From positions 171,638 through 235,637 of the forward strand of contig NW_001799010.1 of assembly GCF_000165425.1 (NCBI RefSeq): a stretch of DNA of 64,000 nucleotides, in the 5' to 3' direction. Of the stretch, positions 32,283 to 62,925 are shown piece by piece. The notes under the pieces are model-generated. The model had not been told where the DNA came from and ran no database searches. It saw only the letters and a program-made list of their open reading frames with translations. Source of the DNA: Paramecium tetraurelia. Lineage: Eukaryota > Ciliophora > Oligohymenophorea > Peniculida > Parameciidae. Positions within the stretch are counted from its first letter, which is position 1. Every line of letters starts with the position of its first letter. The translations under genes were made by a program, and so were the position numbers.

Positions 32283-32638
32283 TTTTAATATTATAAATTA
32301 TGAATCATCATTAATACCAAATTCAAATGAAAACTTTCTTATATCATTTTGAAATCTTATAAAATCTATTTTGAGATATTAATAACTAAGACATGAAAAT
32401 AAAGTTCAAATCATCAATATATTTTACAATCGTATTAGACTTAAAATCTCAAAAATTAAAGTTTTCAATTAGAAGTCGTGTTCAAATTACAATCGAAGAT
32501 TTTTTCAGATGTAATCTAAGTTTATTAATGATTATTTATTATTATTTAAATTTATAGGTCCTTAAATTATTTAGATTAAGTGGGATTGCCTTAATTCTAT
32601 TCAAAAAGTGTATTTAAATTCTATTATTTAAGTAATTT
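32283..32638. other. Divergent intergenic region
   Basis: Lies between the starts of two divergent genes. A/T-rich; no coding or repeated element was recognised. Confidence 0.5.
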
Positions 32639-33332
32639 ATGTCGTATTAATCAATAATAGAAATTAATTTATAAAATCAATTCATGAATCTATCATTCCT
32701 TTCTTCATCAAAATTAAGAGAAATAATTGTTAACCCTAACAACCTAAATAAAAACTTAATTTGTGTGATTTGTGAACAACTAGTTTGGGATCCAAATGAA
32801 TGCAGTTAATGTTAAAATAATTTTTGTTCAATATGCATAAACGAATGGTTAAAGAAAAAAAGTAAAAAAATCATTCTATAAATAAATAGAAAATTGTCCA
32901 TTTGAATGCACTAAAAGAATGTAATTGAATGCTCCTCATAGAATATTAAGAAATTAAATCTCTGAATTATAAGTAAAATGTGTAAATAAAGGATGCCCTA
33001 AAGAAATGTAGCTATAAAACTTAGAGTCTCATCTGAAACAATGTGAATATATAGAAACTAAATGCCCATATCCAGATTGTTTATTTAAAGATAGTTTGAT
33101 AAAAATTGAGCCTCATAAGACATCATGCGAACACAGAACTCGGGTTTGCTAGAAATGTCTAGAAACTTATAAAGTTAAAGATAATCATGATTGTTTAGAT
33201 ATAGTGATAAAAAAAGTGAAAAAATAGGAGGATTAAATCAATAAATTATTAAGAAGACTAGATTGTTTAGAGGAGAATTAAGTTTTATTGGAATCAAAAA
33301 TTCTACTTTAACAGAGAAATTCTAAAAAATGA
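32639..33332 (+). CDS. RING/TRAF-type zinc-finger protein (copy 1)
   Basis: A 221-aa protein. Its RING-like part has CVICEQLVWDPNECSQCQNN followed by FCSICINEW and, after a 28-nt intron (32862-32889), a CP knuckle (NCPFECTKRM). Two TRAF-type fingers follow (VKCVNKGCPKEMQLQNLESH, then CEYIETKCPYPDC with spaced His/Cys). It ends in a coiled coil (QEDQINKLLRRLDCLEENQV). The architecture matches TRAF-like E3 ubiquitin ligases. A paralogue with the same order lies at 59401-60190 on the other strand. The substrate is unknown. Confidence 0.85.
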
Positions 33333-41705: not shown

Positions 41706-43049
41706 ATGGATTGGGCAAGATTAGAGATCATAGTCCCTATATTTCTCATTATTATATATACCTTGTATTATAGAAAATTCAGATTTTATCTTATATCTGA
41801 AAAAGCACAACCAAATGTCATCAGACACAAATTAGCCAGAGGAACACCTCCACCTTCATATCCAAATGGATGGTATCGGCTTTGTAGAAGTACAGAATTG
41901 AAGATTGGGTAAGGAGTTATCACTTAATTTATAGATAAGTGGAAGAAATAAAACTTGCTGGTCGTCACATAGCTTACTATAGAGGTACAGATAAAGTAGT
42001 TTATGCTGTTGCTGCTTATTGTCCACATATGGGAGCTAATCTTGGAATTGGAGGATAAGTTAGATTCAATTCCTGTATTGAATGTCCATTCCATGGATGG
42101 ACATTTGATGGAAAATCTGGATTATGTGTCAATTCTGAAAAATTAGATCCTAAAATTGTATCAACATATTGTTACAATAATATTCAAAATATGGATCCTA
42201 ATAAGAAAGGAGAATATTTACAAAAAGTAGAAGAAGGAGAAATCAAAATAAAAACTTATCTCATTAAAGAGATTAAAGGAATGGTCTATATATGGCTCCA
42301 TTGTTTAGAAGCAAAACCATGGTATGAACCAGTGTCAGAATAAAGTGATCATCTTTAATTAAGAGGGGAGAGTGTGAATTACGTAAATTGTCACATTTAA
42401 GAAATTCCTGAAAATGGTGCTGATGCTAGACATTTTGATTATATTCATTCATCAGTTAATGACTATATTCCAACTTGGATAGTCAGTTTCAAGTGGACTA
42501 TGAAAAGTCTGCCTGCAAATGACCCAGATTTCTATAAGAAGATGGAACACAGCAAAGAGAAGGTTCGTAAGTATTAAATGAATCTATTCGATCAGTATTT
42601 ATCAAATAAAGATTTACGATAATATATGAATGTTTTATGTTTGGATGCATATTTGGTTTTCTTTAATAAATGGAAATTTAATGTGATTTGGGCAACTGGA
42701 TTTTAAATGGGACCAGCAACAGTGGCCTTGTATGTATTGTCTGATGTTTTTGAAGCCTTATATAAATAGGCTATTCAACCAGTTGAAAGATTCAATTTGA
42801 AAGTCTTTCATACTTTATATACAACAAGTATACTCCCTTATTGGGCCAGTGCTTACATATTGGGGAGGAGAATTGAGACAAGTGATTGCAGATGTCAGTT
42901 TGTGGAATAATAAGATCTTTACAGATAAGGTTGCTTATAATTTAAAGGGTGATGCTGATCCTTTGCTATTGAAATGGAGATAATGGTACGCTCAATTTTA
43001 TGAGGGATCCAGGGAATTTGAGAAAAGTTTAGATGCTTTGGAATGGTGA
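41706..43049 (+). CDS. Rieske sterol C7-desaturase-like oxygenase (copy 1), frameshifted near the end
   Basis: Rieske non-haem oxygenase of the Neverland/DAF-36 cholesterol 7-desaturase type, known from insects, nematodes and Tetrahymena. An N-terminal membrane anchor (IIVPIFLIIIYTLYY) is followed by YPNGWYRLCRSTELKIG and the Rieske cluster (YCPHMGANLGIGG plus CIECPFHGW). The iron site lies in ENGADARHFDYIHS. A 26-nt intron lies at 41909-41934. The remaining length is 3n+1. Near 42862 the frame must change to reach LRQVIADVSLWNNK and the end SLDALEW, which copy 2 reaches without a break. A 19-nt pseudo-intron could mask it. Bases 41853-42327 are near-identical to copy 2. Confidence 0.85.
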
Positions 43050-43489: not shown

Positions 43490-46400
43490 ATGCTCTCTGA
43501 TTCCAAGTATGATATTTTTACTATCCATAAGCAATCGACTTTCAACTTAATTGTCTCCTAAATTGAAGGGAATAATCGTATCCCAATTAATCAAGACATA
43601 ATCCTCCCTCTCTATATAAGACGCATTTATAAGGTAGGCTACTTTACTATTCATTTTTAGATGGTAGGTTAGAACCAACCCTGAAATTGTAAAGAAGGCT
43701 GTTGACAAAATCCTATTGAATTCTAAGTTGAATTAATTTAACGCTTTCCACAAACTCAAATTCTTATTAGGGTATTAAAAACTATTAAGTAAATAGTACA
43801 CAACCACCAAAGGAAGTTAGAATGAATGCAAAGAAAAAAAAAAATTTGAGCATAATCAATTTGGCATTATTTGTTCAAAAAAAAGAATTATAACTCAAAA
43901 GATAGGCAATTGAATCAATTAAACCAACCTCGCAAGATACAAATAAAATGCTTGGCTTACTGATTTGGTCAATAAGTTCAAAATATAGAGAAAGATATTT
44001 ACGAGAAAAATTTAATTGGTGGAAGTTAATTGCTAAAATCAAATCTAATAAATTAGAAAAACAACTTAAAGCATTAGAAAGATTAGGAGACGAATATAAT
44101 ATGAGAAATGATAGATTAGATAGATAAAGACTAAAAGAAGTACATAATAACATAAATCTTATTAGGCATTTGAAATTTGGAGAGGAGACTTGTTAAATTT
44201 TAGGTTAAAGAAAAAGTTCTTTGCTGTTCTCCTTAAAACAACATTCGGAAGATTGCAAAGATGTTATACAAGATGGGTCGATTTACCAGATAAAAGAGAA
44301 AACGATATTAAGAAATAAGGATTATTATTAATTAATAAATTAGGAAATAAAGTAGACTAAAATAAAAGATTGGTTTGGAATGCTTTCAAAGATATTCATG
44401 ATGAAGCTAAAAATAAAAAAACTAAAGTCATCAGGGAATTGATTGAAGTTACATTCAATTAATCTTATACAGCATTTTATAAATGGGCAAATTATAATAC
44501 ATATGCAAAACTAACTGAAACTAATCTTAAGAAAATTAAATCATTCTAATAGAGCGCAAATGTAACTCACTAACTAGTCAAATAAGAAACCTTTAAGTTG
44601 TTTAATCTTAGTAAAAAGATGCAAATCTGTTCATTTCTTGATAAAATTATTTTGAAGTTGCAATAAAGATAAAAATTAGACTCTTTGAGATAAATTGAAA
44701 ATTACTGCGTTCAAAAGAAAATGGAAGAAAAACTTAAAAATATAAACAAATAAGACTTGATATCAAGATTAAAAGATACAGCCAATAAAACAGAAAAGGG
44801 GTTGCTCAAATAAGTTTTAAAAAAATTTTCACTCAATAGAACAACATAGGAGATCAAAAATAAATATTTTGGCAGAATTCTCTTATCTGTTAATGGATAA
44901 TTAATAGATGCATTTAGAAAATGGAGGAAACCTTACCTAATCCCAATGATATAAATAATATTTAAAAAGCTTCTAAGTTTTAAATTAAATTGTAGATGTT
45001 TATCACAAATAAACGTAAATAAGCATATGATCCTTTAAAATATCTTTATTATGATGCATTGTAAAAGAAACGATTTTGTATAAGATAATTATTCTCAGTT
45101 ACAATGAGCGCTCCTTAGAGATATTTAAAATAATGGCAGAATGTAGCCAAAGTATATAAATCAGTTGTAGCATGTTAAAAAACAAATAATTTATTTTATT
45201 CTCTAGCTTTGATAATACAGTCCAATCTACTAACGTTCGTATAGAACAAAAAAGATGTAGATATTAAAGAGAAATGCATCTAGAAAATTTTAGCATCTTA
45301 ACATAGTAATTTAGCCATAGCCTTTTTTAAATGGAAAAGTCATAATAAATAGGAGTAAATTTTGGAAAGATTAGGGGATGAGAAAATGAAATTTCTAATT
45401 CTAAATTTAAAGAAATTTTTAGAAAATGATAAAAAGTAGAGATTAAGAAGAGCTTTAAATCTATTTCATTAAAAACTTTAAGTAGCATAATAGATAAAGA
45501 AAATAAATCTTAGATTAATGTAAACTGTAGTTGGATAAGTGAGTTCGAGCTTTTAGAAATGGAAGTATTTACCAGAAGATAAGGTGAATGGATCAACTGC
45601 AAAAGTAAGTAAATTTATGATATCTCTTGGAAGAGTTGCTTATAGGTTTGTAAAAGTTAATTCATGGAATATTATGGAAGATTATCTTTTAGATGGATAA
45701 GCTAAAAAGAAATATTGTATAAATAAAATCATCTCTGTCGGCTAAAGTGATTTAAAAACAGCATTTCTAATTTGGCATAGAAGATCATGGGAAATGAAGA
45801 TGTTTGATTAGTTTTCATAATTGAATGTTACATTGAATGATGAAATAATTAAATAAAGATTAATTAATTGGATTAATTCCGGCAATAAAGTGAAACATTA
45901 TGCATTGATTGAAATTTTAAAGAGATTCCATTAAAATGCAGAATCTCATAACTTAAGAAGGAAAGCGTTAGCAATAATACATAGAAATACAATCTCTTAA
46001 GTTTGGATATCATTTAATAAATGGAAGCAAATCCCTGAACATGATTATTCATAATTAACAAAGGTTACTAAATTTGAATAATCTATTAATCGTTTCTTAA
46101 TTCGTCAAGCAAAGAAAAAGACATGGAATCCCTTAAATGAAATATATGATGATGCACTAGCAATAAAAAAACGAGCAGTTTTGCTCCTTGTGAAAACATA
46201 AGAATCAGAACAATAACAGGCTCTTAGCAAGTGGAATAAGAATGTGGCTTTGATTTAGGAAGTTGAGAGATGCAAGAGTGTTATATTGCTATTTAAATTT
46301 GTGGGTGATCAAATATAATGTAATTTATAAATTATGCAACCCAATCAAGAGTCAAGATTAAAAGAAAAAGCATTGTTGAAAATAATTGGAGGTAATTATG

Positions 46401-49350
46401 ATAACATTAGATATTTTTTTATGAGATGGAGAAATTATTTAAAATTTGAAAGATTACAAGCAATCGAAGGAGAGAAAAAAGAATTTCTGATTCGCTAGAT
46501 TGGATTTTTTTATAGAAATAACATGAAATCTAAATTGAGATTGGCATTGTCTAAATTCAAAAGAAATTCAGTTCTTAGTGCAGTTTAATAGAAGTTTTTT
46601 TCAAGATTATTTTCTACTAAGTTTGGAGGAGCAATTGTGGCATTTCAGAAATGGAAAAATCTTCCTGATATCTAAAATTACGAAAATGTAAAAAAGGGAA
46701 GAAGATTAGAGAAATTGTTGGAAAACCTATATAGAGGCAGAATCAAATTATCATATGATCCATTAAAAGATGAATATTAAGAAGCTATGAATAAGAAGAT
46801 GCATTGCATAAGAAAATTAATCATCTTAGGCATGGGATCAAATAAGAGATTGTTTTTATCATGGAGAAATACGAATAGGTTATTGAAATCAATTGAAACT
46901 TGCAAGTAAACTACAAATTTCTTTTAAACTCTTTCATTGACATTGTCTGGAAATGTCTAAGTCATTTTTAAGACTAATCAACTTTAAGAAAAAGTCTTTG
47001 AAAAAATGTTATCTTAATACAACAATTTATTAAGATGGGCATTCATCAAATGGAATAATTAAGCTAAATCAGATAGGATTGCCTCATTGATGGATAAAGA
47101 GACAAGAAAGTTTCTATTATTTGCACTTTAAAGAAATTTAAAACATAATAAAATTGGGTAATTAAGAGATATATTGAGAAATTTTAATGATCGTCGAAAT
47201 AGAATAAATTTAATTAAAAAAATACAATTGAAGTTTTTACATACTTTTGCAGGTTAAGTTGAAACCTCCTTTTTGAAATGGAAACAATTACCAGATTCAT
47301 CTAATCTCAAATAAGCATCAAGATTTGAATAAAAATTGAACTCATTTAAAATATAAATTCTTAGAAAGAGTAGTTTTAAATATTTACAAAATATTTATTA
47401 GGATGGATAAGCAAAATAAAAATATGCTATCAATAAATTGATGTTTAATTGTATGAGTGTGGAAAAGAAGGTTTTCTTATAATGGAATAAAGTAAGTGAA
47501 TTGCAAAAGACTGAAGAAAGAGCTAGCAAAGTTATGGGTTTCTTTGGCTCAATAAATAAAATTTAATAAAATCATATGTATTTCTTCTTTGAGGATTAGA
47601 TTAAAGAATTGAAAAAGCAAGAGGAACTAGTTAGACTATTAAAAGAATGGGAAGAAATGTTCAAAGATTCTTATTAGAAATGGAAATAGACTCAAGCTAA
47701 ATTAGATTTATTGGCTAGTCAAAATAGATAGAAATAAAAGTTTTCTATAATTGAAATACTTAAGGATTATATTTAAAATAAAAAGAATTACAATTTAAGA
47801 TTGATTTTAAGAAAGTTTAGCAATTCAAATAAAAGTCAAAAGGCAGTAAACAAGTTTTTATTAGGAATATCACATTCATCAATTGGTTAATTACATAACT
47901 CATTTTAAATGTGGAGGAGATTGCCTGAACCATAGAAAACTAAATAGGGATATATATTTGAAAAGAAAATTTTCAGTTTATTTAGAAAATAACTATTATA
48001 ATCATTCGATGGCTTATAAGATATCTATTTTTAGGCATTAAATAAAAAGCGAAGAGTTGTATTATTATTAGTAAGAACCACTAAATCATAATAATAATAA
48101 GCAGTACAAAGGTGGCGAGATGCGTTAAATTAAATGAATTAATAAGAATTATAGAATGTTTAAGAAAACAGAAAGTTAGCTATACAACTCTTTTATTAAC
48201 ACAAAATGAATTAGTTGAATGTGGCCTTCATTGAATGGAGAGACACTATAAGATTACATACAAATAAGTAAGAAAATAAGACACAAAGGGATGAAAGATT
48301 AAAAAAAGAAGCTATTTTATTGTTCCAAAATTATGCTTATGTGAGATTAAGAGTTTATTTCACTTAATGGAAGATAAGAGCAGTCAAAAGAAATATGATA
48401 TAGATTTGTTAAGCAATCTAAAGAATGATATAATTAAATAGATTTGCTGAAAAGGCTATGAAGAAATATGTTATGGATATTTGGAAAGGACAGCCTTCCA
48501 AGAATAAATGGTTTAAGAGAGTAGCTGATATCATCGCGAAGAATTCCAAAATTAGTAAATAAATAGCTTATTGGAGAATGAGAGATAACTTGAATTAAAA
48601 AGCAGTTGGGTTATCTACTCAATAAATAATTAAATGCAAGAAGCTATTCAATAATTTATTTAAAGCTTTTGATAGAATCAAGCAAAGAGCATTTACCCTT
48701 TTAGAACATTATGGTAAAGGCATACCCGATGATACTTCATTCTAACCTTCACAAACTAGTTTCCTTCAATAGACTCCTATTAAGAAAATAAAGGATACTT
48801 TCTTTAAGTCAGATTTCGATTCGATCCTATAGAAGAATGGTCAAAAGATGGCACTTAATGCTATTTCAAGAGTAGTTAAAGTGTATTTCAAGTAGAGATT
48901 TATTGAATTAATGATTGAATTGGGAGATTAGAAACTAAGAAAAGTTTCCACACATAAAAAAAAGGGAGCAGAGAAATTATTTGCAATTTTAGAACAGAAC
49001 TTGAAATTGAAAAAATAAGTCATTTGCTATTAAATATCATAAGTAATTAATATTAAAAATATTTAGGTTAATGAATAAGGAGTATTGAATTAGATCAATG
49101 AAATTATTAATTATCAATAATCAACTTAGAGTAGTAGTAGATTAGAATCAAGTTAATTGAAAGAGCAATAGCTAAAACTAAATGAAAAAGAAAGAATGTT
49201 AGAGGGTTGGCAAGAGAAATTAAGATGCGTGGCAATTAATAGGTTTTATTACATCATAAATCTTCTAGATTAATCAAAGCTTTAGAAAGATGTGAGGATC
49301 ATTTTGTTGAGGATGCTTTTGTTGCCATTTCTGAATACTAACTTAAATGA
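43490..49350 (+). CDS. Giant W-K-x-L-P repeat protein (~1925 aa)
   Basis: A very large helical, basic protein. Its hallmark is a recurring F-x-K-W-[KR]-x-[LI]-P-[DE] motif: RWVDLPDK, KWKYLPED, KWKQIPEH, KWKNLPDI, KWKQLPDS, MWRRLPEP. The first Trp codons lie near 44274, 44922, 45560, 46022, 46652, 47279, 47912 and 48482. Between them further F-x-x-W motifs occur (FFKWKSHNK, FIKWNNQAK, FMRWRNYL). The pattern recalls Sfi1-type centrin-binding repeats, whose core also has Trp-Lys, but the ~210-residue period is much longer. Introns of 34, 26 and 26 nt fit. Two apparent indels occur, at an 11-A run (43834-43844) and near 44930. The last exon ends EDAFVAISEYQLK. Confidence 0.8.
43834..43844. repeat. 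A11 run at a frameshift point
   Basis: Eleven A within a coding exon. The frame before it and the convincing frame after it (leading to IESIKPTSQDTNKM) connect only if the run is ten bases. It is an assembly-error candidate or a real frameshift site. Confidence 0.7.
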
Positions 49351-49420
49351 ATAATTATCATATAAAAAGAAGCAATATCAATTTAAGTTCATTGATGAAA
49401 TTAACATTATATATTTAATC

Positions 49421-50490
49421 ATGGGAAACACAACTTCTAATCATCCTCAAATAACAGAAGTCTTGACAGAATACCACTTTTAACATAAGAATTGTCTTAT
49501 TACCTCTCATTCTTCATAAAGAAAAATTTTAAAAGCTGCTTCAAAACGAAATGAAATGCCCCATAAAAGTAATCGCCGATTTGCTCCCAATATTGTCAAA
49601 TCTTTGGAGTTTAAGAGCGAAGGTAATCAATACATACAGATGAAACAATATAAAAAAGCTATTGAATCCTATACAAAAGCTATTGTAAGTTGTGCTATCT
49701 AACTAGAATCTCTATGATAATGATTCAATCTATTTCTCAAATCGTTCAGTGGCTAATAAACTTCTCAATAGATTCTAGGAAGCTAAATAAGATGCTTAAT
49801 AAGCTATAAAAATTGATTAGTAAAATTCAAGAGCTCATTTCCTTTATGGAACTGTTATTTTGATTGAAGTCCAAATGTTTCCTGACATTAATGAGGCTCT
49901 CATAAGGCAAGCATAATTGGGAATCGAAGAACTCGAAAAAGGTAATATAATCTTTATATTTTATAGCTTCTGTATAGGTTAAATAAAATAAAAATGAATA
50001 AAAAAATAAATTAAAAGTCTTGATTAATTAAAATTTGGCTAAAGGAAAAAGAATGGTATTCTTGATAAGATAAGAAATAGATAAAAGAAGTACTTTTTAT
50101 AATCATATCCATTTAGATATCTAATCTCTAAAATAAACTCTAAATGATATTTCTCATAGATAACATCATAACTTAGATTGGAATTAAATAGAACAGATAA
50201 TCCATAAGAAAATGGAAATTATTTTACCAGAATGCTTTGTATGTCCAATCACATATGAAATAATGGATGAACCAACACTTCTCAATTCAGGGTTAACATA
50301 TGATAAAAATAGTATTTAGTAGCAATTTAAATTAAATGGCTATCTGGATCCTATGACAAGAGAAAACATTGATCCTTTGGGGTTGATTCAAAATATTTAA
50401 TTATAATAAGGAATATAAGAAATCCAATAGCAATATGGATGGGTAGGGATAGAAAATGAGAAAGATTACAAGGCAATTAAATTTGAATGA
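49421..50490 (+). CDS. CHIP-like TPR and U-box E3 ubiquitin ligase
   Basis: A 340-aa protein with the STUB1/CHIP layout. A TPR block (KSEGNQYIQMKQYKKAIESY, LYDNDSIYFSNRSVANKLL) is followed by a helical middle and a C-terminal U-box. The U-box has ECFVCPITYEIMDEPTLLNS, GLTYDKNSIQQQFKLNGYLD and PMTRENI. CHIP binds Hsp70/Hsp90 through the TPRs and ubiquitinates their clients. A polar N-terminal extension (MGNTTSNHPQITEVLTEYHF) is not in animal CHIP; its M-G-N start could be N-myristoylated. Introns at 49685-49706 (22 nt) and 49942-49966 (25 nt). Confidence 0.88.
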
Positions 50491-51291: not shown

Positions 51292-54200
51292 TCATAAACT
51301 TAATAATTGCTTCAATTAACTTCTACACTCTTCAATATTTTTATCTAATTCTTCCTATTAAATAATAGAATCAAATAAATACAGATAGCCAATCAGTTTC
51401 TAATAGATAATCCTATAATAAACAATTATTATCCGTAGATATCAACTCTTCATTATCATGCGATAACAAGTACAAGTAAAATGCTTCTGCCAATTGTTTT
51501 CTTACTTTAGGTAAACTAAAAATATATATATCAAAAATGTTACTCGCTAGTTAATATTTCAAAGATATGTTAAATAATGTGATGAAACAATTCTGGATTG
51601 ACTGATAAAATATCGATGATTAATTGAACACTTGCAGATAATTTATTTATTGATTGAGTTTTATGAGTTTCTTTGTAAATTAATTGGAATAGAATTTCAG
51701 TTTACTATTTAATTATAGGTAATGATTGTATTTCCTCCTTTTGTAAAACAAGTGAAGCTGTTTTAAATAATGGAATAACAACTCTTTCATCTAATGCATA
51801 TAATTTAAGAATTTCAATCAAATTGGTCATTAGAAGATCAAGATTTTGATTCAGATGTATATATTACATTAATGCTTCTTCACTAAATTTCTATATTGAT
51901 TCACTAATCCCTCCAACGCTAATACACAATCCGGTTAGGATGTATCTACAAAATGTAGGATATGCAAGAATGGGAACTATTAATCGATAACAGCAATGTG
52001 GTAGATTCCAATGATAAATTAGATCTGTTTTTCCTATGGTTTATAGAACATCTTTTAGGTTTTTAATTTCAGCCTCAATAATTTCACTTTAGAAGGTTTG
52101 ATCCACTCTTTCTTAATCTTTTATTATAGTCTCTTATAAGTTAGCAGTTGAGAATATTGTAGATATTTATTCATAATTTTCAAACCTTTATAATTTAGGA
52201 AATACAGATTTAAACAAATCCTACAACACACTACCAGCTAGTAATCTGACTCTATCAATCTTTTCACATAATTACTATAATAATTGCCCAATAATTTTGA
52301 TAATACATTATTCATTTATGATAATATTTCCTATATGATTTCTTTCAATATAACCTACATAACAAACTAAAATTGATTAAATAGCAATTATTGAATTTTC
52401 TCTAATGAATAACCCTACATCTCCTTTTTTATTCACTGTGTAATCTAACATTGCATAAAGTATGCAATCAATAACAGGTAAGAGTTGAGCTTCACAATTA
52501 TAATTATTGTTCAATTAATTAATAATGCTTTGTCCAAGAGACTTTATGGCAAACTTTCTAGTGTCTGGATCAATACTCCAACTTGTTAATTTAGCTCTTT
52601 TCTTTGAAAGACCAATTGTGTACAATATACTTAGATCTTCATTATGTAATACCTAAGGTGAAAAAGATCCAACACTTTAAGCATAACCTCCCTATATCAG
52701 TACTTGAACAGTAGTTGACTTTTGATGCAATTATTTTATGACTCTTTTTAAGAATTCTTTACCATCTATTAAGTATTGACCTTATGTTTGATATTGATTG
52801 CTTAATAATCTTAAAGCTTTGGCTGCTGATATCTGTATTTCTTCCAAAGGATTCTTTAAACCATCTTCAATAAATTTCAAATAATAAGCATGTTGATCTA
52901 TTTAAAGTGGTAATTTAGAAATAGAGATGCATTCAATTAATCTATAGGCAGCTATTCTAATTTATTCTCCACTCTTTCCTTTTAAAGAGTCCTCTAATAT
53001 TTTTGGTATTTGCATGATCTCATCTATGATTTCTTCTGAAAGTAAATTCATATTTTCGGCTTATAATAATTACTCATATTATGATTTGAAAATTGTTATG
53101 TGTTCTCCAGCTTTTGCTAATTATCTTTCATTTTTAGTTAATGTCCTAAGGAAAACTGAATCCTTTAACTCCTTTTCCTCTGAGTTCTTAGTGATATTTC
53201 CTGATTATGCAATAAGTAAATCTCCCAAAGCAAATAAGGCACCATGTTTTGAATTCAGGGATTGTAATTTAACCATTTTTAAAATGCTTTCATAAATCAA
53301 ATTCTCCTTGAAATAGGTTGGATTCAACACAAGCAATCTTCCTAAACTTTTGGCTGCCAATTTTCTAACTTCTTTATCTTGACTTGCTATCTTAATAAAA
53401 GCTAAATGATCAACCATCTATTTAAAGTATTCTGGATAGGAAGCTACGAATGGAGCAATTCTTAAATAGGCATTATGAATCATAGCCAATGAAAAATAAT
53501 CCGCTTCTGTTAATATGCTTATACCATGTGGTATAATATTAGGACACCTTCCAACTAATTCTTAGAAAGTACTTGATGCTGCTCTTCTAACATTTACTTC
53601 TCGATCGAAAATCATAACAATTACTAAATGTTAAGCCAAAGCAAGGACATGATTTTTTAATATTTCAGGATCATAAGCCCTAGCAGCAGACCAAGCAATG
53701 AAACATGCTGAATCTCTGACATTTACACCAATACTATAACCTCCTTGATTCTACTCAAAAATCAAGGCTTTGCAAATAATAGGAATGATGGATTCTAATT
53801 TATTTTCAAGAATTAGTCCTCTTCTACATAATTCTCCTAACGCTAGACAACCACCATGCCAGGCAGTGTCTCCATTGATTGGAGTGAAGCATGTGTTGAT
53901 TAATGAATCAAAAATATCATCTGCTTAATCTAAATTCAATCTAGCACATATTCTGCCTATACCCTTAGCGGCTGACCATCTAACAACAGTATCCTTATTT
54001 ATTATTTATTATAACAAAGTATCTACAACAGTTTCTAAGCCTTCCTAATCAACATCAATGAAATAATCAACATCCTCTAGTTAAATATTTGACTATTATT
54101 ATTATTGTAATTATTAGTTTGTTTTGGATATTTATGAGTTGGTGACAATTCTTGAATAATCAATGATTGTTAATGTTTATTATAGATTTGTTGTGCCTTT

Positions 54201-55283
54201 TTTGTATGTCCAACTAACAACTCTTGGTCTTAAATAAACTAATCCAATTCTCTAAGTTAATTTGGTTAGAAACAAGTTTATTAATGTACCTTATTATTTC
54301 AAGTTGAGTAAAGGCAATAAAATATATAAATTATTCTTCAACACATCTCTTTGAACAACTTTCAGAATTTCTACCAAAGTTTCCAGGATTCCTGTTATAT
54401 AAAAAGTATTAAGAATATTATCTTGCAATTCATGAATTTATTTGACACTCCAATTTAAAAATTATTCTAATAGATTGCATTTCAATATATCTGTTCTACT
54501 GAATAATTTAGACAAATATAGTGCTCCCATGTTTCTTAATTTTGTGGATGATTTTAAATAATTGACTCCCAAATTTAACAATGATGTTATTATCGTATTG
54601 CTTGATGTGAAAGTGTCTTAAATGGCATTAAAGATTTAAGAATCAATTGAATTTAAATCAAATGGAACTAAAACTATTATGCTTAACCACATGAGAATAA
54701 CATATTTAGTTTCCCAATTCTAATTAAGATCTGTTGAGCAATGTTACAAATACATAACAACTGGTTCCAAATTGCAGACTTCATGTGGACAGTATCTGCT
54801 GATTGTTCTTATTCCTCTCACTTTTGTAAGAATATAAATTGTATCACAAATGTTGTGAAATTCTTCACAGCTACTTACCCCAACATTATTAACATTTTTT
54901 AGCACATAAACTTTTACTACATCCATAAAACTCACACAAATCTATTCTAAAATAGAATCTAGTAATGTATTTTATTCTTGGTATTTTTCAAATATGTGAC
55001 ATACTCTATTTTTTACTTTAATAAATGGAAATTTCTGTAATTGAGGATTATTTTCATTTTACACAATGAATTTTTATGTAAAATAAACACACATATTTTT
55101 TATATCCTTCATTATTATTTCAAAATCCAATTACAATTATTCTTCATGTTGCTTATTTGTCATTTCTTATTCTGAAATACTATATGCGAGATTTTATTTA
55201 TCTTCCTCTTCTATTTCATCATACTACAAGTTATTGTATTTCTTCCTTAAATTCAGATCTTCTGATTCATAGTAAAATGCCAT
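51292..55283 (-). CDS. Tubulin-specific chaperone D (cofactor D)
   Basis: HEAT-repeat protein that binds beta-tubulin and assembles alpha-beta dimers with cofactors A, B, C and E. It is long (about 1300 codons), in the family range. Diagnostic stretches in order: IYILTKVRGIRTISRYCPHE near the N-terminus; TAWHGGCLALGELCRRGLI; GGYSIGVNVRDSACFIAWSA; FDREVNVRRAASSTFQELVG; MVDHLAFIKIASQDKEVRKL; LNSKHGALFALGD; and late in the protein DYTVNKKGDVGLFIRE. A 28-nt intron fits at 51516-51543; others must exist since the raw length is 3n+2. It starts MAFYYESEDLNLRKKYNNLQ. The end (EECRSQLKQLLSL) is 28 bp before the AT-hook gene start. Confidence 0.92.
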
Positions 55284-55331
55284 TTTTATTTTTATAAAAG
55301 AAATTAATATTAATTTATATTCTTTAAATTA

Positions 55332-56826
55332 TCATAATTACTCACTTAATTTTGATATATGATTCCAGAATTCTTCTACATTCTCTTTGGTTGTTGTGTG
55401 ATTTGAAATAGACACTCTAAGATAAAATACACCCTTAATTTCTGATCCACTTATAAATCCAAGCATAGTGTTTTAATTTATTAACTCTTGTATTTTTCTA
55501 TTTAATTTATTTTATGTAGTCAAATCTTCATGAACCAATAAAAATGTGACTAATCCCAATTATGGTTTTGTAAATATCCTGAATCTGTTAGATGATCTTA
55601 CTAATTGTTCGAAATGATTAGCCACTTCTATCTTCTATTAAATCTATTCTTTCATACCATTCAATCCCAAGCTTTTTATCATCCAAAACATTTTAATTGA
55701 ATTAAATCTCTTACCCAAAGCTACCTGCCAATCCTTATAATCCCAAACATCATAATTATCGGTGAATTTATTCTTATAAATCTCAAAATCTATCTTATTT
55801 CCCATAGCTTCAGCTAATTCACTTTTATCATTAACATAAAATAAGCTTCCAGTCAACCCACACATCATCAATTTTGCAAAGTTGATTTCTATAGAATCTG
55901 CAAACTCTAAGCCTTTGGCTTTCTCTCTGTATTCATTTATAAGCCAAGATGACCCAGCATAAGCGGCATCCACATTGAACCAAATTTAATATTTCTAACA
56001 AATCTCACCTAATTTATCTATCGGATCGAATGCACAAGTTCCTGTTGTGCCAAATGAACAACTTAACCAAAATGGAATAAGCCCATCTTTAATATCCTGC
56101 TCAATTATCTCTATTGCCTTCTATAAATCTACAACATAATTTTATAATTCCTCGTTAAATATAACAGGTAGTTTCTTTTAATAATATATATCCTTTAAAT
56201 GCAATGCTTTTGTAGCACAAGCGTGAGCACTCTCGACATAATAACCTACAAATTTGCAAATTTATGCAGAATCTGTATTTATTTTCAATTACTTCATCTT
56301 TCTTCTCTTAGCTACATGTACAGAAATAAAGATGGCATCTGAAACTGTGCCAGCTATTGTCCCTCCTCCTTAATTTTTCATTAAAAATTTGTTAGGTAAA
56401 TCTAAACCATATACTACCCAATCAACTACAATATTTTCCAATTCTGTTTATGCAGGAGAAGCTAGCCATTAAAACCCAGGTGTTCCAAACGCAGAAGCAA
56501 ATATTTCTGCTATTATTGAAGCATGTGTAATGTTTGATGGGTAATATGCATAAAAATTTGGATGACTCCATAAAGTCAGTCCAGGGAAAATCTAAACATT
56601 CAAGCTAGTAATTTACTTTAGTTTCAGTTTCTTTTAATATGCTATCGAGGGATTCTGGTTCTAAGGGAGGCTATTCTGAAAATTGTTATCTCAAGAATCC
56701 TGGTTAAACCTGAGGGACAACCGGGTATTTTAATTAGGCAATCTCATCAAATTTATTCGACACCAATTGCAACATTTTTGTACCCGCTTCCACTAATATT
56801 TCTGTATTTAAGAACTTCTTGCTCAT
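55332..56826 (-). CDS. Aromatic-L-amino-acid decarboxylase-like PLP enzyme
   Basis: Group II PLP-dependent decarboxylase (DOPA/tyrosine/tryptophan/histidine type), 489 aa. Landmarks are GLTLWSHPNFYAYYPSN, FGTPGFQWLASPAQTELENI, GGGTIAGTVSDAI, SFGTTGTCAFDPI and FNVDAAYAGSSWLINEY. The PLP lysine region reads SIEINFAKLMM instead of the common N-x-H-K-W, so the Lys is present but its His and Trp neighbours are not. A 25-nt intron lies at 56592-56616. It starts MSKKFLNTEILVEAGTKMLQ. The substrate cannot be chosen from sequence. Its stop is 48 bp upstream of the cofactor D start. Confidence 0.9.
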
Positions 56827-57027: not shown

Positions 57028-58370
57028 ATGGAGTACCTCTCATTGGAAATACTATTATCTTTTTGCTTCATAGCACTCTATTATCTCTATTATAAGAAGT
57101 TTAGATTCTTTGTAATAGAGGAGAAAAAGAAAGAAAACATTATTAGACACAAATAAACAAGAGGCAAGTGCCCCCCTTCATATCCAAATGGATGGTATCG
57201 GCTTTGTAGAAGTACAGAATTGAAGATTGGGTAAGGAGTTATCACTTAATTTATAGATAAGTGGAAGAAATAAAACTTGCTGGTCGTCACATAGCTTATT
57301 ATAGAGGTACAGATAAAGTAGTTTATGCTGTTGCTGCTTATTGTCCACATATGGGAGCTAATCTTGGAATTGGAGGATAAGTTAGATTCAATTCCTGTAT
57401 TGAATGTCCATTCCATGGATGGACATTTGATGGAAAATCTGGATTATGTGTCAATTCTGAAAAATTAGATCCTAAAATTGTATCAACATATTGTTACAAT
57501 AATATTCAAAATATGGATCCTAATAAGAAAGGAGAATATTTACAAAAAGTAGAAGAAGGAGAAATCAAAATAAAAACTTATCTCATTAAAGAGATTAAAG
57601 GAATGGTCTATATATGGCTCCATTGTTTAGAAGCAAAACCATGGTATGATCCTATGGTTGAGAAATGTGATCATTTGTAATTAAGAGGAGAGAGCATCAA
57701 CTACATTAACTGTCATATTCAAGAGTTTCCGGAAAATGGAGCAGATATTCGCCATTTTGATTATATTCACGCATCAGTTAGTGATTTTATTCCTACTTGG
57801 CTTATTAAATTTAAATGGAACATGAAAAGCATGTCTGCAAATGATCCAGACTTTTATAAAAAAATGGAACACCCTAAAGAAAAGATCAGAAATTATTAAA
57901 AGTAATTATTCGATCATTATTTGTCAAATAAAGATTTAAGACCATATATGAATGTATTATGTTTAGATGGATCTCTGATGTTCTTTAATAAATGGAAAAT
58001 TAATGCATTATATATAACAGGATTTTAAATGGGGCCTGCCACAATCTAATTATATATTTTATCTAGTCTATTTGAGGTTTTCTATAAATAAGCTTTGCAA
58101 CCTGTCGAAAAATTCAATCAAAAGGTTTTCTTAACATTACACATAAATTCTTATTTACCTTATTGGCTTAGTGCATATATTTTATCAGGAGGGTTGAGAT
58201 AGATTATTTCAGATGTAAGTGTGTGGGATAATAAAATATTTGCAGCTTAAAGTTGCTATAATTTAAAAGGTGATGCTGATCCTGTATTAATGAGATGGAG
58301 ATAATGGTATTCGTAATTTTATGAGGGATCAAGAGATTTTGAATAAAAATTAGATTCATTAGAATGGTGA
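57028..58370 (+). CDS. Rieske sterol C7-desaturase-like oxygenase (copy 2, intact)
   Basis: Intact 438-aa paralogue of the gene at 41706. Same plan: membrane anchor (LSFCFIALYYLYYKKFRFFV), YPNGWYRLCRSTELKIG, Rieske ligands in YCPHMGANLGIGG and CIECPFHGW, iron site in ENGADIRHFDYIHA, ending KLDSLEW. The 26-nt intron (57231-57256) is identical to that of copy 1. Bases 57175-57649 match copy 1 at 474 of 475 positions, while both flanks are clearly diverged. Likely role: introducing the delta-7 double bond in sterols at the ER with a reductase partner, from family knowledge. Confidence 0.9.
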
Positions 58371-59400: not shown

Positions 59401-60190
59401 TCAAATGATTTCATACAATTAGCACTCCAAACATTAACATACACCACACTTTTTGCAAATACTTTGTGTATTTTTCAAATGACATTTGTCACATTTCACC
59501 ATCACTTAATTTTACTCAAATTCATGTTAACACAAATCATTAATTTATTAATTTTTTTTTTTTTCATTTTAATCTAGTCTTTTTGCTAATTTCCTTATGA
59601 TTTTGTTTTATTATTATATCTACTTCTCCATTAATTTAATTTTTTTTATTACAATATCCAGACAATCATGCTCTTCATTCATTTTATGAATTAGTTTACA
59701 TTTCTAACAAGTTTTAGTGATGTATCCACATATCTATTAATGAACCTTCATTTATTGCAAACAGTCTTTGAAATTACAGCCAGAATGTGGACAGTTAGTT
59801 TTTTCGTATTCGCATTACTTCAAATGAGAATCTAGTCTTGAGAGTTACATTTATTGAGAACATCCTTCATTTATACATTTAATCTGTATTTCAGAGATTA
59901 AATTTCTTACTATTGGATGAGAATCGTTCAATCTAATGTTTTGACAACAATTTTAACAAGATTCTATTTTATAGATCACACTTTATACAATTTTTCTCTA
60001 ACTATTTAAATATACATATAGAACAAAATAGTATTTTACATCCACTACACTCCTTAGGATCTACAACTAATTCTTAACATATTACACATATTAAGTGTAA
60101 ATTGATGCTTTTAGGATCCACAATTAAACTTCTAAGTATTGGAGATTAAGAAATGGATAAAGAATTCATTGATATTTTTTATTGATTCAT
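59401..60190 (-). CDS. RING/TRAF-type zinc-finger protein (copy 2) with extra Cys cluster
   Basis: A 254-aa paralogue of the gene at 32639. The RING has ICVICQELVVDPKECSGCKI, FCSICIFKQ and, after a 25-nt intron, SCQNCCQ. The TRAF fingers have IKCINEGCSQQMQLSRLDSH, then CEYEKTNCPHSGCNFKDC. A coil (MEKQIQQQNKIIRKLAKRLD) follows. Unlike copy 1 it then crosses a run of 13 A and continues with a Cys-rich end (VKCDKCHLKN, CKKCGVCQCLECQ) absent from copy 1. If the run were one base different the protein would end soon after the coil. Likely E3 ligase. Confidence 0.75.
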
Positions 60191-60698
60191 TTCTATTAAG
60201 ATATCTCTCCTAATAAATACTAAATTTTATAAACCTCTTAAATTTTATTGTAATATAAAATAATTATGAAAATAGTATTTCCGATAAAGTTTAAATAGTT
60301 TGCATTTAAATTTGTTTTCAATAAACTCAAAACAATAATACTTGAATGTATTTTAATACTTTAGATTTTTTAGTCTTTAAAAAGTAGTTTGATTAAAATT
60401 AATGCAATGATTTCTACTTTATTTAATCTTAATAACAGCACAAAAATGTTAAATAAATGTAGTATTATATGAAAATGTTATTATATATTTGGATGTTTAA
60501 GTCAATTAATAGATGAAATCTTTACGAATATTAGAATTAAGTTGTATCCTTTTTAGAATTAGAAAGAAGAAGTGAATATAGCATTACCTAATACCATAAT
60601 TTTAGAATATCCGATTTTCAATAAGAATCTTCATACGAAGCAGCAATATACACTTGTTTGGTGGATTGCGACACAAATTTATTTAGAGAATTTAATAA
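60191..60698. other. Divergent region with ambiguous open frames
   Basis: Two plus-strand frames are open between about 60500 and 60737. One reads FLELERRSEYSITQYHNFRI, the other IRIKLYPFQNQKEEVNIALP and NTIILEYPIF. No ATG or splice site selects one, and both overlap the next gene's start. Upstream of 60500 the DNA is AT-rich spacer. Confidence 0.35.
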
Positions 60699-62925
60699 AT
60701 GCATATTCACAAAATTATTAGTAATAATTTTATCATGAAAAGGCATAGCACAGGAAAAAAATTTCACAGAATAAAAGGAATAAAAAAGGCTGACCTGAAT
60801 GCGATTATTTCTGAAACTCCAAAGCAAATTGAAGAGTTTATTGAAAGTCTCTCATCCCAAGGATCGCTGATCAAAAAAGTAAAATATGCATATTTTTAAA
60901 CAAAAAATGGTTTAAAGTTTCCAGGATTTATTGGTATTGTTCATTTTCTTTTATCGAGCAACCGAGCCTATTGTACCAAATGACACTCTTGTCACTCTCC
61001 CTAGAGAAACCTTACTTACCACCCTATAGGCATTTGAATCTCCATTAAAGCCTATGTTTCTAGAATATCCATAATTTTTTAGTCCCTAATTTCATTCCTA
61101 ATGGGAATATCACCAAATTCTTGCATTTTTATTATATGAATATTAAAGAGGAACTGATTCCAAATGGTATTATATGATAGTAAACTTCCCAAGAGATGTT
61201 GACTATGCTGTATTTTGGAATACACAAGAATTAGAATCGCTAAAAGATGAAAATATAATTAAAAGTGCAAGAAAAAAATATATAGGGCTTCTAGTTACTT
61301 TTTAAACTCTTAGATATATAGCAGACAAATTTCCAAACCTTTATAAACCTGGAATTGTAACAATGGAAAATGCCATATGGATTCATACAAGTATTGTTAC
61401 AAGATGCTTTGGAGGATAAGGGTTGAAATATGTCACAATGGTACCATTTTGTGAGCTATTTAATCATGAATGTGCTGATGTATGTTATGATCTAGAATAA
61501 TAAGATTAAAGTACAAGGTACAATTATGAATTTATGACAAAAAAATTAGTTCAAGGTTAGGAGAATGATGATGAGTTGTCAATTACATCTTCAGAAAATT
61601 CTTAATTTTCAGAAGATGACATGAGTGATTCGGAATTTGTAACAGGTGAGTACGATTAATATTAAGAATTTAATTTTGATAAATTTAGTGAAAATTCAAT
61701 CATAAATTTTGAAGAAAATATAAAAAGTTTTTTCAAGAAAAATTAATCAGTGAAAAGTGATGAATTAATTAAAATGAGAAAAGAATTTAATATTAGATTG
61801 AATATTTAACAAGATGTTTTCTAATTAGCAATAGATTGCAAAGCATATTTGTTTTAAACAATTGATTTTGGAGATAATTTTTCAATTTTTTTTTTAGGAC
61901 AAATCTTTTAGTAATTGGATTAACTAATCTAATAATTTTTTAGTTTGGAAAGGTCATCCTATTAAGCAAGAGCAGAAATACAACAAATTAAAATTGATTG
62001 CAATTTGTATAAAAATTTTTGGTATTCTTTTTAAAATGAAGTTCTAAAAAGACCAATCTAATAAAAATACAATGTGTTTGCTCAAAAGATAGTTCGGAAA
62101 CCAGAAAGGCCCATATTTAGCATGGAATAAATCTTATCCCAACCTGTTGATCGAAGTTGTGATTATTACACATAAGCCTTCTAGAAAGAGACTTTTAAAA
62201 ATCTTCTAATGAGAACCAGAGATCCTTTCGAGAAAGGGGCCTAGGTATATTTTTGCTATAGTCGATTGTCGAATAGAATTATGTTGCTTAAATATGGAAT
62301 GTCTCTAGAATATAATAAATATGATAGTACATTTCTAAGAGTTGAATTTTTAAAATATATTAAAAATAAGGTGGGTATTTGGATTGTTCATAGATTTAAA
62401 CTAAATAAATTAAAAAGATTCAAACTAAAACATATAGTTCCTCCTTATGAATTAATTGTTTTTTGTAAATTAATATATTGGTAATACATCATTTGTAATA
62501 ATTTTCTAGGAACACGAATGTTCATTCTGTTAACACTATTTTTAATATCTAAGATTTGTAATTAGAAAGATAAGCTTTATCCTTAGCCCTGGAAATTTTG
62601 ATTGAATAAAATTCAAAATTTAAAGAAACAATTGAAGAACTTGAGTAATTGCTGCTTGAGAAAAGTTTAGGATATCATTAATATTTTGCAGTTATCTATC
62701 GATTAGAAAGATTGAGAATATATCGTCGAAATATTCAGTATTGAATTTATTCCATTTAGTCTAATTAATATAAGCATAATTGTAATAGACAAATTGATGA
62801 AAGGAGTTCCATATGAAAAAGCAATTGAAAGAACAGAGTTTGATTTAGATTTCTATGAAACAAATAGGTACATATTAAGGAAATATTTTGATTAAATAAG
62901 AGGGGCATTATATCAATAAAAATGA
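60699..62925 (+). CDS. SET-domain protein methyltransferase, Rubisco-LSMT/SETD type
   Basis: A 716-aa lysine methyltransferase of the split-SET class (plant Rubisco LSMT, SETD3/SETD6). After a basic N-terminus (MKRHSTGKKFHRIKGIKKAD) comes LKFPGFIATEPIVPNDTLVT, then LPRETLLTT and the iSET region. VPFCELFNHECADV holds the conserved N-H. An acidic insert of about 150 residues follows (SENSQFSEDDMSDSEF). Then come DPFEKGAQVYFCYSRLSNRI and LLKYGMSLEYNKYD, the C-terminal SET and substrate-binding start. Introns of 25, 29 and 22 nt (the last at 62738-62759) fit. An internal Met at 60735 is an equally good start. Targets unknown. Confidence 0.85.

Follow-up and report, generated by a model that had tools for sequence, protein, structure and literature searches.

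A 475-bp near-identical tract in two linked, strongly diverged Rieske oxygenase genes of Paramecium, probably left by gene conversion

We analyzed a window of 64,000 nucleotides (the whole stretch of DNA, GC 28%) whose genetic code, intron size and GC content fit Paramecium, and translated it with the ciliate code (code 6), in which TAA and TAG are read as Gln. Two predicted Rieske oxygenase genes, here called A and B, lie in this window in the same orientation and share a tract of near-identity. The features that concern us are:

41706..41908, plus strand: gene A exon 1, with an N-terminal hydrophobic segment (judged by eye), a linker and the start of the Rieske domain (from translation and alignment with B)
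41909..41934, plus strand: gene A intron, 26 nt, GTA..TAG, inside the tract and the same as the gene B intron
41935..42952, plus strand: gene A exon 2 as read, ending at TGA 42950-42952 after a frameshift near 42861-42873
41853..42327, plus strand: tract copy A, 475 bp, with 474 bases as in copy B; spans amino acids 50-199, the Rieske [2Fe-2S] domain (from direct comparison, maximum-likelihood borders and the domain span)
44699-49714: ORF of 1672 aa, one of the features between the Rieske copies
51534-55331, minus strand: tubulin-folding cofactor D gene, between the Rieske copies
55335-56690, minus strand: pyridoxal-dependent decarboxylase gene, between the Rieske copies
57028..57230, plus strand: gene B exon 1 (from translation)
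57231..57256, plus strand: gene B intron, 26 nt, GTA..TAG
57257..58370, plus strand: gene B exon 2, stop at 58368-58370; the gene is intact and encodes 438 aa
57175..57649, plus strand: tract copy B (from direct comparison and maximum-likelihood borders)

In Pfam searches, the product of gene B matched Rieske (PF00355, 3e-19; residues 56-140), Rieske_2 (residues 56-185) and KshA_C (PF19298, 1.7e-10; from residue 194), and gene A as read gave Rieske at 3e-19 and KshA_C at 8.4e-06. The best PDB match to gene B was KshA, both by sequence and by fold; a fold search with a model of gene B exon 2 placed KshA structures at the top, with 4qdc first (TM 0.58). All four cluster ligands are present in both copies, and the iron motif E/D-X3-D-X2-H-X4-H was found as ENGADARHFDYIH in A and ENGADIRHFDYIH in B. 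With their Rieske and KshA_C domains, their four cluster ligands and an iron motif of the form E-X3-D-X2-H-X4-H, the proteins are alike to the Tetrahymena sterol C7 desaturase DES7, described as a Rieske-type oxygenase (PMC9485055), and to DAF-36, Neverland and bacterial KshA. The account of the Neverland family in PMC7609953 gives the same iron motif and the cluster motif C-X-H-X16-17-C-X2-H; the spacing between the ligand pairs is 18 here instead of 16-17, and the likeness to the family is drawn from this description and from KshA. Judged by its Pfam domains and its match to KshA, gene B is predicted to belong to the Rieske oxygenases of KshA / Neverland / DES7 type; A and B alike are probably genes for a sterol-acting oxygenase.

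When compared to 20 aligned bacterial relatives, the ciliate protein carries about 20 extra residues after the Rieske cluster. This insert (~42137-42223 and the equivalent in B) is absent from those relatives, was modelled poorly (pLDDT <50) and lies wholly inside the tract. Among the matches listed, Gemmatimonadetes / Gemmatimonadota MAG contigs (L001, L002, L003, L013, L022, and L026) were some of the closest bacterial relatives; their Rieske domain starts with YPDGWYRL, where the ciliate has YPNGWYRL, and L026 is 53% identical to the ciliate protein over residues 49-127. This likeness is a possible lead on the origin of this eukaryotic Rieske line.

Gene A, as read, encodes 406 aa and its frame shifts ~0.5 kb downstream of the tract. 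The frame homologous to B continues past the shift to a TGA at 43047-43049; of 57 codons counted in this part, 40 specify the same amino acid as in B and none is an in-frame stop (pN 0.147; pS 0.584). Since the frame beyond the shift is still conserved and uninterrupted, the frameshift would be either a young loss of function or a sequence error. An intron as its explanation was considered and dropped: besides the known intron, gene A has a single GTA..TAG candidate of 18–39 nt, 42734-42769, and this one, 36 nt long, precedes the shift and sits within conserved coding sequence. The C-terminal block that is lost from A contains columns at least 90% conserved with the 20 bacterial relatives (D319, W323, R348, W350, Q353, and F354 of gene B exon 2; the gene A row of this alignment was cut before the shift), suggesting that gene A, in the form read here, probably does not yield a functional enzyme.

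Base-by-base comparison of 41853-42327 with 57175-57649 (offset 15322) revealed 1 difference in 475 positions. The sole mismatch, C at 41977 and T at 57299, distinguishes TAC from TAT, both of which encode Tyr, and the intron within the tract is the same at 26/26 bases; the earlier note, which had reported one C/T difference with the whole intron and the synonymous sites alike, was exact on this point. A two-rate maximum-likelihood scan returned precisely 41853-42327 (mismatches: 1/475 inside, 250/867 outside; gain of 118.8 lnL) with an uncertainty, within 3 lnL, of 8 bases at each border (start: 41853-41861; end: 42319-42327), and a global alignment of the two genes placed the borders at 41853 and 42327 as well. 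The longest run with at most one mismatch covers 475 of the 1342 aligned coding-region sites, compared to a maximum of 77 in 10,000 shuffles. The claim that the genes differ at many positions on either side also held when we followed identity along the aligned genes: it is 474/475 in the tract and far lower in the coding flanks (left: 84/147 aligned sites, 57%; right: 533/720, 74%), where the longest identical run is 18 bp. Outside the genes, identity over 200 bp drops to 103/192 aligned positions (54%) ahead of the start and to 80/191 (42%) past the stop. The reading frame and splice sites are intact across both tract junctions in both copies.

Gene B has 439 codons, 438 of which have all bases aligned to A; we counted 437 (49 in the left flank, 149 in the tract and 239 in the right flank) and left out the codon cut by the left border. 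The silent difference per site between A and B is 0.90 in the left flank, 0.011 in the tract and 0.66 in the right flank (0.70 for the flanks together), and the corresponding non-silent differences are 0.31, 0, and 0.17. The dN/dS of the flanks is ~0.1, a rough figure given that dS is near saturation, indicating that both genes were constrained for most of their history.

We consider DNA-mediated, non-crossover gene conversion between old, linked, same-orientation Rieske paralogues to be the best explanation of this pattern, and a probable one. The tract with its sharp borders, the identity of silent sites and intron, the DNA kept between the copies and their common orientation all point to non-crossover conversion: both genes and the intervening genes are retained, and the flanks keep their older divergence. 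The suggestion of the earlier note that conversion between copies 15.3 kb apart and in the same orientation fits the tract is therefore the best supported reading. The template would have been DNA, as the intron is retained and identical, which rules out a cDNA-mediated patch; a recent segmental duplication is likewise ruled out, because the high identity is confined to 475 bp and drops to the values given above outside the genes.

An ancestor would have suffered a break in one Rieske copy in its germline, and repair would have drawn on the other copy without crossing-over. About 475 bp of one copy (amino acids 50-199, i.e., the Rieske domain and the intron) would have replaced the homologous part of the other, the DNA between the copies would have stayed in place, and one silent change would have arisen since. 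The exchange may have been tolerated because only the electron-receiving domain was swapped and the substrate-binding catalytic domain was left untouched. We infer a single event with A or B as the donor, its location in the germline nucleus, and its tolerance through an exchange limited to the Rieske domain. Codon usage of the tract is A-like by 9.2 lnL, and with a permutation P of 0.17 it gave no decision on the direction of transfer. Among genome-contig relatives that might polarize the event, the 80 listed of 122 are all bacterial by title, with no ciliate among them, and no relatives were found in the viral contigs.

As described in PMC3924818, conversion mostly takes place where identity exceeds 80%, its rate being low under that level, and tract lengths average tens to hundreds of bases. 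The flanks, at 57% and 74%, fall short of this partner identity; as that source allows rare events below it, we take it as usual rather than strictly required. Given the low flank identity, either the two Rieske segments already resembled each other more closely when the event took place, for which earlier conversions may be the reason, or the event was a rare one. This low identity also makes one fresh event between A and B hard, and so lends something to a rather unlikely alternative in which conversion took place repeatedly and the tract is the part where it persists, the flanks having become too diverged to convert any more and the conserved Rieske domain still converting, or in which a third Rieske paralogue, such as a copy from a whole-genome duplication (WGD) elsewhere, overwrote both A and B. 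Base composition speaks for the third copy to a degree, since the tract looks as if it came from elsewhere: third-position GC (GC3) is 24/149 (0.16) in A and 23/149 (0.15) in B, compared to 82/288 (0.285) and 78/288 (0.271) in the respective flanks (Fisher P = 0.005 and 0.006); it is below that of 58/58 windows of 149 codons drawn from 12 other long ORFs of the window, and when adjusted for amino acids it has a z of −3.2 against a minimum of −2.5 in those 12 ORFs, not all of which are proven genes. The codon usage, with no clear pointer to either A or B (two-sided permutation), agrees with such a source. The GC3 contrast is nevertheless weak: a free scan for low-GC3 segments misses the tract borders, returning codons 45-250 in A and 50-437 in B, and 5/60 shuffles did as well in each gene, so that we dropped the contrast as a mark of foreign origin. 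Moreover, a search of the window for a further Rieske copy (ORFs of at least 40 aa, blastp E ≤ 1e-6) found none, and this alternative needs more events. According to PMC5485702, conversion raises GC, and the low tract GC3 is opposite to the rise reported there for Paramecium conversion; the low value is unexplained, and it leaves room for a third donor gene without proof.

An assembly artefact, in which the sequence of one copy was filled in or corrected with reads from the other, seems decidedly unlikely to us. The frameshift of A, 0.5 kb downstream and the sole hint of sequence trouble close by, would mark a weak assembly stretch if it were a sequence error, but there is no N in the window, neither frame nor splice sites are disturbed at the junctions of either copy, and assemblers should not confuse copies that are 57–74% identical. 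The single silent C/T suggests that two sequences were seen, although it could itself be a base error. The earlier note had named an assembly chimera as the main alternative; identity is a precondition of a misjoin at a repeat and not something that it can create, so what stands of that claim is the copying-in of reads by gap filling or consensus, which alone could create the tract. As for purifying selection alone having kept the Rieske domain identical, the domain is indeed the best-conserved part of the family (11/16 invariant columns of A1, the alignment with the bacterial relatives, fall in it), but among degenerate codons that specify the same amino acid in A and B, only 1/142 differs in the tract (141 identical) compared to 76/182 in the flanks (106 identical; Fisher P = 6e-22), and the intron is identical too. 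Silent sites and intron rule out amino-acid selection as the cause and bear out the earlier doubt that selection alone could be invoked; we give this reading almost no chance.

Returning to conversion between A and B as the favored reading, we compared the tract with the domain structure. The earlier note had stated that the tract stops at no domain border; the comparison does not support this, as the tract corresponds to the Rieske domain. Its left end follows the hydrophobic N-terminal segment (again as judged by eye) and lies six residues ahead of the Pfam Rieske match. In an AlphaFold2 model of gene B exon 2 (22 sequences; mean pLDDT 72.8, ~67–78 around the border; pTM 0.67), strand 116-120 (gene B 184-188) was taken as the last Rieske strand, and the next element is helix 132-136 (gene B 200-204), so that the right end, at gene B 199, is predicted to fall in the linker that leads from this strand to the first helix of the catalytic domain. 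Random placements matched the domain as well as the tract does in 10/289 cases, in a test that was chosen after the fact, and we take the match as a hint only. A mild reason for it could lie in the Rieske domain being the best conserved one, with selection removing any conversion that extended into the part that binds the substrate. A further reading, which we hold to be very improbable, is that repeated or selected exchange keeps the Rieske domain common to A and B, with separate catalytic domains, for use in mixed A/B trimers. It derives from the trimeric build of Rieske oxygenases, where a catalytic iron is served by the cluster of the adjoining subunit (as described in PMC12445004) and receives electrons from it, and from the meeting of the Rieske domain with the redox partner. 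If that were true, the same domain-limited conversion would be expected independently in sister species; if the frameshift of A is real, mixed-trimer use would have ended or the product of A would be altered.

Next, we considered the age of the event. With the mutation rate of 1.94–2.44e-11 substitutions per site per division that is stated in PMC11334263, one difference per ~114 silent and intron sites corresponds to ~2e8 cell divisions (~5e6 to 1.3e9), if these sites are neutral. The tract had been called recent, and this holds relative to the divergence of the paralogues (silent difference 0.011 vs. 0.70); counted in divisions, which are of the order of 10^8, it does not.

When the window was compared with itself by blastn (word 11, E ≤ 1e-10), genes A and B were the only pair returned; this is not a complete list of repeats, as the search missed a second, more diverged pair. 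That pair, found by protein comparison, lies at 32375-33329 (plus) and 59404-60706 (minus), i.e., inverted, is cysteine-rich and by eye resembles RING/TRAF zinc fingers. Used as a control, it showed 69% DNA identity over 572 bp and no near-identical patch. One member lies ~1 kb from gene B and the other ~8 kb from gene A, and from these positions both pairs might go back to a single duplicated block that is old and has since been rearranged. Recent single-gene duplications are very rare in the Paramecium species covered by PMC10195154, which reports a median of 28 per genome, and the deep divergence of the linked A/B pair is in line with a duplication long ago.

Conversion between Paramecium paralogues from whole-genome duplications is documented, as the accounts in PMC10195154, PMC11334263, PMC5485702, and PMC3464196 indicate, and in the Paramecium aurelia paralogues of this origin the same process appears as a sudden drop in silent divergence. 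The published Paramecium scan, as those sources describe it, followed Ks per gene along duplicated blocks, whereas here the drop concerns a 475-bp piece inside one gene, in a linked pair 15 kb apart with a flank silent difference of ~0.7 and no rise in GC. The Caenorhabditis genes fog-2 and ftr-1 are similar in that conversion took place between linked paralogues and into a region of only 77% identity (as given in PMC3966223); those two are tandem neighbors with a KS of 0.28 according to the same source, whereas genes intervene between A and B and the flanks have diverged far more at silent sites. According to these accounts such conversion is common in Paramecium; the process itself is thus already known, and what is unusual here is the low flank identity, the linkage of the pair and the single-domain extent.

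At single-base resolution, the locus offers a clear example of what is probably partial conversion in a pair of linked paralogues that have diverged strongly. It also carries a warning for gene trees, in that a tree of the Rieske domain would present A and B as newborn twins and a tree of the catalytic half would present them as ancient. From the match of tract to domain comes a hint, open to testing, that selection filters the conversions that persist.
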